Of a DNA stretch of 8,688 nt, positions 2,244 to 5,876 are shown piece after piece (position 1 is the first letter of the stretch; each line of letters starts with the position of its first letter). Made by a program: the position numbers and the translations under genes. The DNA is taken from contig CALBEV010000165.1 of the NCBI GenBank assembly GCA_937891045.1, forward strand, positions 1-8,688, given 5' to 3'. Origin of the DNA: an uncultured Burkholderiales bacterium. Its GTDB lineage: Bacteria; Pseudomonadota; Gammaproteobacteria; Burkholderiales; Burkholderiaceae. The notes under the pieces were generated by a model. That model had not been told where the DNA came from. It searched no databases and saw only the letters and a program-made list of their open reading frames with translations.

Positions 2244-2891
2244 ATGAAAAAACGACTGGGCCACATATTTTTGGTCGACGACAACCACGACATGCGCTTT
2301 TACCTCAGCGACATGTTGATCATGTTGGGTTATACCGTTGACACTTTTGACAATGCAAATGCGTTTCTCGACAACGCGATGGACATCTCGCCGGCGGTTT
2401 TGTTGTTGGACATGCGCATGCCAGGCATCAACGGCTTGGAGTTGCAGCTGCGCATGGAGTCTTTGTGCCGCAAAACGCCGATCATTTTCATCAGTGGGGA
2501 AAGCGACAAGGACGAAATCATTGAAGCCTTTCGCATGGGCGCAGTGGATTTTCTGCTCAAGCCGTTCAACCGTGAAAAGCTGTGTCAGGTGGTGGACAAG
2601 GCGCTTGAAATGGACCGTCAAAGGAACCATGAGTTCGTCAAGACCGATGTGCTCAGGCGTTCTTTTGAGACATTGTCAGCGCGAGAGCAGGAAATCTTCA
2701 TGCTGATTGTTCAGGGGCTCACCAACAAAGGCATTGCCGAAGTCACTGGAATACAGCCGGGTACGGCCAAAAAACACCGCGCCACCATCTACCAAAAGTT
2801 CCAAATCAACACCAGTGCCGAACTCATCAGCCAATGCCAAGGTGTGGATTTGAGCCAACTCAAGGTCACCGAAGAGAACGCAGAACAGTAA
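2244..2891 (+). CDS. FixJ/NarL-type two-component response regulator (orphan)
   Basis: This is a DNA-binding response regulator of 215 residues that would be phosphorylated by a sensor kinase and then control transcription. The N-terminal receiver domain (about 6-122) has the acidic pair D12/D13, phospho-acceptor D56 (LLLDMRMPG), switch residue S84 (FISGE) and conserved lysine K106 (LLKPF). A LuxR-type helix-turn-helix follows at about 140-196, with LSAREQEIF and GLTNKGIAEVTGI, then the recognition-helix region GTAKKHRATIYQKF. This domain order and spacing are typical of FixJ-family regulators. No histidine kinase is encoded in the window, so its partner and targets are unknown; the adjacent pilin gene is a possible target by position only. 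The ATG at 2244 has no clear Shine-Dalgarno sequence, and its upstream region is AT-rich with a palindrome at 2171-2190. No clear terminator follows before the metH leader. Confidence 0.92.
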   Translation: MKKRLGHIFLVDDNHDMRFYLSDMLIMLGYTVDTFDNANAFLDNAMDISPAVLLLDMRMPGINGLELQLRMESLCRKTPIIFISGESDKDEIIEAFRMGAVDFLLKPFNREKLCQVVDKALEMDRQRNHEFVKTDVLRRSFETLSAREQEIFMLIVQGLTNKGIAEVTGIQPGTAKKHRATIYQKFQINTSAELISQCQGVDLSQLKVTEENAEQ

Positions 2892-2996
2892 GGCTTTCCT
2901 GGTGAAGAGGATGACGGGGCCGTTGCCAAGCCACGAGCACTTCGCGCAGGCCTTGCTTACAAAACTCGCATATCCAAAAGTGATGGGTGGCCCGGT

Positions 2997-3002
2997 TAAA
3001 AT
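2997..3002 (+). promoter_or_regulatory. Candidate -10 box of the metH promoter
   Basis: TAAAAT (2997-3002) matches the -10 consensus at five of six positions. Transcription would start about 7 bases downstream, near 3009, just before the first base of riboswitch stem P1 at 3011. This fit between promoter and aptamer is the main support. No good -35 hexamer lies 16-18 bases upstream, so an activator or a weak promoter is possible. Confidence 0.45.
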
Positions 3003-3010
3003 CTGCACTT

Positions 3011-3102
3011 CCCCAAGGAGCGTTGCAGCCCGCCGCCGCCAAGGCGCAGCAGGTCAGGCTTGGGGCTGTTCTGATCCAGAAACATTGTGCACAACCACGC
3101 TC
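3011..3102 (+). ncRNA. S-adenosylhomocysteine (SAH) riboswitch aptamer
   Basis: This leader RNA element senses SAH, the by-product of methyltransferases, and is known in proteobacteria upstream of ahcY and metH, where it turns expression on. The core is seen directly. Stem P1 is CCCCAAG (3011-3017) with CTTGGGG (3059-3065), seven perfect pairs. The conserved strand GAGCG (3018-3022) follows P1 and pairs with CGCTC (3098-3102) to form the pseudoknot; the match can extend to GAGCGT/ACGCTC. P2 can be drawn as TTG (3023-3025) with CAG (3055-3057), plus GCC (3028-3030) with GGT (3052-3054). The CAGGCTTGGGG segment closing P2 and P1 resembles the family consensus CAGGCTCGG. A variable hairpin (TGTTCTG/CAGAAACA, about 3067-3085) fills the gap before the pseudoknot strand, as is allowed in the class. 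Assignment is from memory of the consensus; a covariance-model search would settle it. Confidence 0.88.
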
Positions 3103-3122
3103 ACCTGTTAGCCCAAGGTGAG
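3100..3122 (+). promoter_or_regulatory. Riboswitch expression platform: anti-Shine-Dalgarno hairpin of metH
   Basis: CTCACCT (3100-3106) is perfectly complementary to AGGTGAG (3116-3122), with a 9-base loop. The right arm is the metH Shine-Dalgarno sequence (AAGGTGAG, 3115-3122). The first three bases of the left arm (CTC, 3100-3102) also belong to the 3' strand of the aptamer pseudoknot, so pseudoknot and sequestering hairpin exclude each other. Without SAH the ribosome site would be masked; with SAH the pseudoknot would hold CTC and free it. This is translational ON control as expected for the class, inferred here from base pairing. Confidence 0.8.
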
Positions 3123-3125
3123 TCC

Positions 3126-5876
3126 GTGTCTGTTGTTGCCCCAGAAATCCTTTCCGTTCCCCCCATGAAGTTGTCCGGTCTGGAGCCTGTCTCCATCGGC
3201 ACCGGGTCGCTGTTTGTCAACGTGGGCGAGCGCACCAACGTGACCGGCTCCAAGGCCTTTGCCCGCATGATCCTGAACGGCGAGTACGAGCAGGCCTTGG
3301 CCGTGGCGCGCCAACAGGTCGAGAACGGCGCGCAGGTGATCGATGTCAACATGGACGAAGCCATGCTCGACAGTCAGGCGGCCATGGTGCGATTTTTGAA
3401 CCTGATGGCCGGTGAGCCCGACATCGCCCGTGTGCCGGTGATGGTGGATTCGTCCAAATGGACGGTGATCGAAGCCGGTCTGCGCTGCATTCAGGGCAAG
3501 GGCATCGTCAACTCGATCAGCATGAAAGAGGGCGTAGACGAATTCAAGCGCCAAGCCAAGTTGGTCAAGCGCTACGGTGCTGCCGCCGTGGTCATGGCGT
3601 TCGACGAAAAAGGCCAGGCCGACATCTACGAACGCAAAATCGAGATTTGCGAGCGCGCTTACCGCGTGCTGGTGGACGAGGTGGGCTTCCCGCCAGAAGA
3701 CATCATTTTTGACCCCAACATTTTTGCCATCGCCACCGGCATCGAAGAGCACAACAACTACGCGGTGGACTTCATCAATGCCACGCGCTGGATCAAAACC
3801 AACCTGCCGGGTGCCAAGGTGTCGGGCGGTGTGTCGAACGTGAGCTTTTCATTCCGTGGCAACGACCCGGTGCGTGAAGCGATCCACACCGTATTCCTGT
3901 ACCACGCCATCCAGGCGGGCATGGACATGGGCATCGTCAACGCGGGCATGGTTGGCGTGTACGACGATCTGGAGCCGAACTTACGCGAGCGTGTCGAAGA
4001 CGTGGTGCTGAACCGCCGCCCTGATGCGGGCGAGCGCTTGGTGGAAGTGGCCGACAGTGCCAAGGGCGCGGCCAAAGACGAGAGCACCAAGCTGGCCTGG
4101 CGCGGCACGCCCGATGCACCTGTGCGCGTGGCGCAGCGTTTGAGCCATTCGCTGGTGCATGGCATCACCGACTTCATCAGCGACGACACTGAAGAGGCCT
4201 ACCAAGAGATTTTGGCCAAGGGCGGTCGTCCGCTGCATGTGATCGAAGGCCCGTTGATGGACGGCATGAACATGGTCGGTGACCTGTTCGGCCAAGGCAA
4301 GATGTTCTTGCCGCAGGTCGTCAAAAGCGCTCGCGTGATGAAGCAGGCCGTGGCGCATTTGCTGCCCTACATCGAGGCTGAAAAACTCGCGCAAGAAGCG
4401 GCGGGCCAAGACGTCAAAGCCAAGGGCAAGATCGTGATTGCTACTGTTAAGGGCGATGTGCACGACATCGGCAAAAACATCGTTACCGTGGTCTTGCAGT
4501 GCAACAACTTTGAAGTGGTCAACATGGGCGTGATGGTGCCCTGTCACGAAATTCTGGCCAAAGCCAAAGCAGAAAACGCCGACATCATTGGCCTGTCGGG
4601 CCTGATCACGCCCAGCCTCGAAGAGATGCAGTACGTGGCCAGTGAGATGGAAAAAGACCCGTACTTCCGCGAGCGCCAGATGCCGCTGCTCATTGGTGGT
4701 GCCACCTGCAGCCGCGTGCACACCGCCGTAAAGATCGCGCCACATTACAGTGGCCCGGTGGTCTATGTGCCCGACGCTTCGCGCAGCGTGGGTGTTGCGC
4801 AAGGCTTGTTGTCTGAGCAAGCCGCCAAATTCATCGCTGACCTGAGCGCCGATTACGACAAGGTGCGCGAGCTGCACGCTAACAAAAAGCAAACGCCGAT
4901 GTGGACGTTGGCGCAAGCCCGCGCCAACAAGACGCCCATCGACTGGACCCAAGGCGTGCCCGCTGCGCCCAAGTTCATAGGCCGACGCGTGTTCAAAAAC
5001 TACGACCTGGCCGAAATCGCGCAGTACATCGACTGGGGTCCGTTCTTCCAGACTTGGGATTTGGCGGGGCCTTTCCCCGCCATCCTGGATGACGAAGTGG
5101 TGGGCGATCAGGCGCGCAAGGTGTTGGCCGATGGCCAGGCCATGCTCAAAAAAATCATCGATGGTCGTTGGGTCACGGCCAACGCGGTACTGGGCCTGTA
5201 TCCCGCTAACAGCGTGAACGACGATGACATCGCGCTTTACACCGACGAGTCGCGCAGTCAAGTTGCCATGACCTGGCGCGGCCTGCGTCAGCAGACTGAA
5301 AAGCAACGCATTGAAGGCGTGATGCGCCCCAGCCGCTGCCTGGCGGACTTTGTCGCCCCGCATGGCGTGGTGGCAGACCATGTCGGTGTGTTCGCTGTCA
5401 CCGCGGGCATTGGTGCTGACAAACGCGCCGAGGCTTTTGAGGCCGCGCATGACGACTACAGCGCCATCATGCTCAAGTCTCTGGCTGACCGTTTGGCTGA
5501 AGCGCTGGCCGAGTGTTTGCACCAAAAAGTGCGCACCGACTTGTGGGGTTACGCCGCAGGCGAGGCGCTCAGCCACCCAGAGTTGATCGCCGAAAAATAC
5601 CAGGGCATCCGCCCTGCGCCTGGCTACCCTGCCTGCCCCGACCACAGCGCCAAACAAGCCATGTTTGACTTGCTGCAGTGCCAGGACATTGGCATGGGCC
5701 TGACCGAGAGCTTGGCCATGACGCCTGCGGCCAGCGTGAGTGGTTTTTACATCGCTCACCCCGAAGCGCAGTATTTCAGCGTCGGCAAAGTGGGCGACGA
5801 CCAAGTGAAAGATCTGGCCCAGCGCAGCGGTGTGCAGGTCAAAGACCTGCAGCGCTTGCTCGCGCCCAACCTCTGA
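3126..5876 (+). CDS. metH: Cobalamin-dependent methionine synthase, large part without the homocysteine-binding domain
   Basis: MetH moves the methyl group of 5-methyltetrahydrofolate through cobalamin to homocysteine, giving methionine, in the cytoplasm. This protein has 916 residues; single-chain MetH has about 1,230. Present are the pterin-binding domain (about 19-280; [18 protein letters not shown] at 106-112, [13 protein letters not shown]), the helical cap (about 341-421), the Rossmann cobalamin domain with DVHDIG (444-449; H446 is the lower cobalt ligand) and GLSGLITPS, and the AdoMet-binding reactivation domain (about 590-910; YIDWGPFF at 634-641, [12 protein letters not shown] at 829-840). 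The N-terminal zinc/homocysteine domain is missing and no gene for it lies in the window. A split enzyme with a separate homocysteine-domain protein is known in related bacteria. GTG 3126 was chosen for its strong Shine-Dalgarno AAGGTGAG (3115-3122). An in-frame GTG at 3087 lies inside the riboswitch and is unlikely; ATG 3165 lacks a ribosome site. Expression is probably controlled by the SAH riboswitch directly upstream. Confidence 0.95.

Follow-up and report, generated by a model that had tools for sequence, protein, structure and literature searches.

An SAH riboswitch upstream of metH2, the 3′ part of a split methionine synthase gene, with a predicted translational ON switch

The metH2 leader and its SAH aptamer

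The window analysed here is the whole 8,688-nt stretch of DNA. On its + strand it carries metH2 (3126–5876, GTG start), a methionine synthase gene that lacks the homocysteine domain. The Pfam domains Pterin_bind, B12-binding_2, B12-binding and Met_synt_B12 were identified in its product, while a homocysteine-binding domain was not found by the same search. NCBIfam assigns the protein to metH, and the match begins at residues 325 and 343 of two metH models. Judged from these predicted domains, metH2 is the 3′ part (folate/cobalamin/activation) of a split metH. The homocysteine-binding part, metH1 (PF02574, 321 bits), sits on another contig of the same genome, whose assembly is 82% complete.

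We compared the whole window with Rfam 15 using cmscan and obtained a single RNA-family match at E ≤ 1, the SAH riboswitch RF01057. This match lies on the + strand at 3009–3109, covers the full model (1–78) and has a modest score of 43.9 bits (E = 1.1e-5), which exceeds the gathering cut-off of 37 bits. The covariance-model search proposed in the original prediction was thus run, and it bore out both the identity of the aptamer and its strand. The P1 helix consists of seven Watson–Crick pairs, as had been predicted, between CCCCAAG (3011–3017) and CTTGGGG (3059–3065). In the Rfam alignment P1 is shifted one step outward (3010–3016/3060–3066), giving six pairs and a U/C mismatch at 3010/3066. 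The predicted pseudoknot between GAGCG (3018–3022) and CGCTC (3098–3102) was also recovered. The P2 stem-loop (3029–3053), earlier called plausible, is weak in the Rfam alignment, where four of the six pairs are standard and two are mismatches; folded alone, this 25-nt loop gives a hairpin of eight pairs (−9.1 kcal/mol), interrupted by a single C/A mismatch and a 2-nt bulge. Relative to the Rfam family, the window differs in this mismatch and bulge of P2, and it has CAACCACGCTC in place of the consensus CAACGGCGCUC. Among three near relatives, L124 (same genus) shares the minimum fold of P2, with A-U in place of one inner G-C pair; L123 has one extra pair and L005 one fewer. The element order expected for an SAH aptamer was confirmed at the sequence level: P1, pseudoknot strand, P2, P1′, CAAC and pseudoknot strand follow one another as in RF01057.

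We analysed the covariation of P1 and the pseudoknot in 43 leaders (31 distinct rows). These comprised a set of 41, namely the window, 37 Rfam-positive relatives found among 80 metH loci and three other relatives, together with L016 and L023, whose aptamers were recognised at the motif level and have no match at the Rfam cut-off. Nine more metH2 leaders (L092, L093, L094, L099, L100, L117, L120, L122 and L129) were excluded from the 41- and 43-leader counts. We observed that 95.4% of the cells were paired and 37 cells were changed on both sides, and none of 500 shuffles was as high on either measure. In 12 of the 500 shuffles at least as many pairs had changes on both sides, and in 484 at least as many further pair types were seen; these shuffle statistics, like those for the platform helix below, ignore the relatedness among leaders. 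Changes on both sides occurred at four of the seven P1 pairs. All pseudoknot cells were paired in the 43 leaders, with a single compensatory change, G-C to A-U, in the metH2 leader of L016 (about 2850–2960; strands AAGCG/CGCTT; no match at the Rfam cut-off).

A chance match is unlikely because of the E-value, the recurrence in relatives (above cut-off in 37 of 80 metH loci) and the covariation. The score, P1, P2, the pseudoknot and the association with SAM-cycle genes (metH2 here, ahcY elsewhere in the genome) make membership in RF01057 well supported on sequence grounds.

A putative −10 element, TAAAAT (2997–3002, + strand), lies 13 nt upstream of the aptamer core, and transcription may thus begin at the aptamer itself, with a predicted start at about 3009. 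The pattern TANAAT is kept in relatives: of 40 metH leaders, 38 (the exceptions are L041 and L046) have it within the 30 nt that precede the core and 35 have it at a distance of 11–14 nt, as compared with 1 of 120 windows further upstream; this count omits L007, for which just 10 nt of upstream sequence were available. It is present even where the metH1 match ends 25–36 nt before the aptamer (L013, L014 and L066). A sigma-70 scan for a −35/−10 pair found no canonical −35, and the promoter is therefore proposed from the −10-like element alone. TAAAAT was also observed 6–7 nt before an ATG in front of the genome's own metH1 (L004, 2566–2580, − strand) and just before metH2 in L040, L043 and L044, which are Aquabacterium genomes whose metH2 has no aptamer match. 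With so short a spacing, the metH1 of the genome analysed here and the metH2 of the three Aquabacterium genomes may have leaderless transcripts. In most relatives the homology of metH1 begins near Met27, so that its true start may be later.

A predicted compact expression platform

The original prediction ended the element at 3102. The span 3011–3102 does hold the aptamer core; it stops before the expression platform, which reaches the start codon at 3126. An anti-Shine-Dalgarno (anti-SD) strand, CTCACCT (3100–3106, + strand), pairs at seven of seven positions with the Shine-Dalgarno (SD) sequence AGGTGAG (3116–3122, + strand), which ends 3 nt upstream of the GTG at 3126. The first three bases of the anti-SD strand, CTC (3100–3102), are common to the 3′ strand of the pseudoknot.

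Among the 41 leaders, the anti-SD/SD helix had 7/7 pairs in 27, six pairs in 12 and five in two, L022 and L033, which fit poorly. It reached p < 0.05 against shuffled downstream sequence in 31 leaders and p ≥ 0.05 in 10. Over 32 distinct rows, 92.9% of the cells were paired and eight were changed on both sides, neither value being attained in 500 shuffles, and the covariation score was likewise higher than in all 500. At least as many pairs with changes on both sides were seen in 20 of the 500 shuffles, and at least as many further pair types in 26. When the partner strand was slid, pairing fell to 29.7–56.9%, while two slid versions still had seven cells changed on both sides as compared with eight. 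The outcome of this test is constrained in part, AGGTGAG being a good SD in its own right. An ATG or GTG follows within 10 nt of the helix in 34 of the 41 leaders, the true start being perhaps elsewhere in some. In 26 of the 41 it follows 2–4 nt after the SD arm, as GTG in the window, L005, L123 and L124 and as ATG in the other 22.

In the free fold of 3009–3140 the SD is closed, with unpaired probabilities of 0 to 0.12. When P1 was enforced and the pseudoknot strands were held out, 3120–3122 and the start codon opened and 3117–3119 were still paired. When the pseudoknot strands were held out without enforcing P1, the probability of P1 was about 0.29 and most of the SD was paired. The closed state was favoured by about 16 kcal/mol (−48.0 versus −32.0 under the first of these two constraints), and the bare pseudoknot helix gave −6.2 versus −11.9 kcal/mol for the SD hairpin; these ViennaRNA energies are nearest-neighbour values that exclude the pseudoknot, ligand and tertiary contacts, and hence are silent on equilibrium switching.

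As the anti-SD strand shares bases with the pseudoknot and can pair along its whole length with the ribosome-binding site, SAH should turn translation ON. We consider it highly probable, from the sequence, that this SAH riboswitch switches metH2 translation ON. Without SAH, the anti-SD/SD hairpin would form and hide the ribosome-binding site. With SAH bound, the pseudoknot would retain CGCTC, closure of the hairpin would be incomplete and ribosomes could load at the GTG at 3126. The predicted stability of the hairpin greatly exceeds that of the bare pseudoknot helix, and the decision would therefore probably fall during transcription, ahead of the emergence of the SD. The ON logic that the original prediction had assumed thus gains a visible candidate basis in the overlap between the pseudoknot strand and the anti-SD, and we infer that SAH would raise MetH output. 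Release of the SD upon pseudoknot formation was reportedly described in the original SAH riboswitch papers.

Other riboswitch classes are known to act on transcription, and the aptamer could be real and yet work by attenuation or through Rho rather than on ribosome access, with the hairpin stalling the polymerase or exposing a Rho site. In L029, L039, L041, L045 and L047 the first ATG or GTG lies 20–43 nt after the hairpin, so that masking of the SD alone would not suit every relative. However, no intrinsic-terminator-like site was found in 2850–3200, and in the window the SD, which ends 3 nt upstream of the start codon, is formed by the 3′ arm of the hairpin; we therefore regard action on transcription as improbable here. 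Still less probable is that the element is a decayed relic whose regulation has been lost. Its 43.9 bits are the lower score of the genome's two copies and P2 has two mismatches in the Rfam alignment, but P1, the pseudoknot and the platform are intact, P2 folds well, and the metH2 copy is kept in both same-genus genomes searched (46.4 and 46.6 bits).

The reading frame raises one further alternative. The longest metH ORF opens at 3087, inside the aptamer, and if the protein began at this GTG the 3′ part of the aptamer would be coding and the platform meaningless. The stretch 3087–3125, however, spans conserved RNA strands, an SD and start are present at 3116–3128, and the same arm is followed by an ATG or GTG at 2–4 nt in the 26 leaders mentioned above. 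A start codon at 3087 was ruled out on these grounds, and we give this alternative the least credence of the three. Automatic annotation may call a false metH start at this position. Translational control of metH2 by the anti-SD/SD hairpin remains the preferred reading.

Distribution among split and fused metH genes

Next, we surveyed metH loci in relatives. The survey took the best 80 of at least 594 loci and is therefore biased to near relatives. An SAH match above cut-off was present in 37 of the 80 (by batch: 16, 14, 6, 1 and 0). From tblastn with metH1 together with the open frames, none of these 37 has a fused metH; metH1 was found in the examined flank in 15 and not in the flank in 22. 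By the same approach, fused metH was called at 14 of the 80 loci, none with an SAH match; the call for L072 may be due to chance, because its relatives are split. A further 26 loci, including L016 and L023, have a split metH without a match, and three are truncated. In 14 of the 15 loci with a flanking metH1, the aptamer lies between metH1 and metH2, 25 to 2719 nt past the metH1 match. The remaining one, from Comamonadaceae bacterium OS-4 (L007, 4–84), has the SAH riboswitch before metH1 instead, and its hairpin pairing is kept by a change on both sides (CTCACT/AGTGAG).

We found no SAH match within the 3.9 kb examined around metH1 of the window's genome. In two same-genus genomes rated 100% complete, just two SAH matches were found at E ≤ 0.1, one upstream of ahcY and the other upstream of metH2, and metH1 is therefore without a match at this threshold in both. 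In one of these, L123, metH1 is upstream of metH2 in the same orientation and an open frame on the opposite strand separates the two, which speaks for separate transcripts. The original placement in front of metH thus stands as to position, directly upstream of the gene, and needs amendment as to the gene, which is metH2 rather than a whole metH. If only metH2 is under the riboswitch and metH1 comes from a separate transcript without an aptamer, SAH would set the MetH1:MetH2 ratio and tune subunit stoichiometry rather than simply the amount of enzyme. We put this forward for the split-metH Comamonadaceae as a tentative and rather doubtful proposal.

No plasmid copies of the leader were found; four plasmid records match, in each case only within query bases 192–272 (3171–3251 of the window, metH2 coding). 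A search for a cobalamin riboswitch in the same genome gave none at E ≤ 0.01 in the 82% complete assembly. The same genome encodes a 339-aa protein (L135, 278–1297, − strand) in a region that matches Meth_synt_2 (112 bits), and this protein is possibly a core methionine synthase, as judged from its sequence.

In a sample of 200 genomes from the family, taken out of a larger group, an SAH match at E ≤ 0.01 was present in 196 and one above cut-off in 195. A third match above cut-off was seen in two of seven genomes inspected closely. One candidate, before ligA (L128, 1501–1603, − strand; 38.1 bits), was rejected as a regulon member because it belongs to a CATTGCGAG...CTCGCAATG repeat that recurs in the same genome (L132, 1501–1594). 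The genomic repeat CATTGCGAGGAGCG...CTCGCAATGACG is scored by the Rfam SAH model, once above cut-off (38.1 bits), and is likely a source of false positives for this model. Another match (L127, 1501–1583; 38.8 bits), located where a Bcr/CflA-type MFS gene begins, is a possible member: its core is atypical, with neither AGGCT nor CAAC, which are usual, and GGGTG/CGCCC could pair as a compensated pseudoknot.

The ahcY copy, known systems and the methyl cycle

The genome of the window has two SAH matches above cut-off, before ahcY (64.8 bits) and before metH2 (43.9 bits). The ahcY riboswitch (L001) has an aptamer of the same class and carries TAGAAT just upstream. Its platform differs: the ahcY hairpin is imperfect (CTCATCC/CGGTGAG) and 61 nt separate the start of its 3′ arm from the SD of ahcY, GGAG, whereas in the metH2 leader the 3′ arm is itself the SD. 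We compared 29 of 31 ahcY leaders, excluding L089 and L104, which are shortened by contig ends. A CTCACCC/GGGTGAG-like hairpin is kept in L001 and the 28 others, in a comparison made without a control. GGAG followed by ATG occurs in 25 of the 29, at 42–85 nt beyond the start of the hairpin 3′ arm, and between that arm and GGAG there is often a second sequence complementary to the CCCGC/CCCAC stretch. The comparison suggests that the ahcY leaders have a longer platform than metH2.

SAH riboswitches have been reported in 11 of 11 Comamonadaceae genomes, with MetH listed among the members of this riboswitch regulon that are specific to Comamonadaceae (Leyn et al. 2014; PMC4239095). Placement before metH, which the original prediction also held to be known, was therefore already on record. 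The parts of that article consulted here are silent on which part of split metH is controlled and on the platform. In a literature search that most subscription journals lay outside, we recognised no report of split-metH control or of the platform among the matches listed. As described in the parts of the literature consulted, the SAM/SAH riboswitch likewise binds SAH and acts on translation (PMC10516623); it differs in also binding SAM and in forming an H-type pseudoknot (PMC7367207), and it controls metK in Rhodobacterales (PMC4239095). The Rfam scan of the window gave no match to it at E ≤ 1. The class, its ligand and its placement before metH are thus already known, and the window adds a further member; what may be new is modest, namely a compact platform, different from that of the genome's ahcY copy, that would govern a single part of a split enzyme.

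With each gene under its own SAH riboswitch, an increase in SAH would induce the hydrolysis of SAH to homocysteine (ahcY) as well as the remethylation of that homocysteine (metH2), so that SAH clearance and homocysteine remethylation would be tied to one signal in the same genome. The metH2 leader offers a testable switch, in which three shared bases would decide between the pseudoknot and the SD-masking hairpin, and the restriction of this control to one part of a split enzyme would bear on the balance of its subunits.
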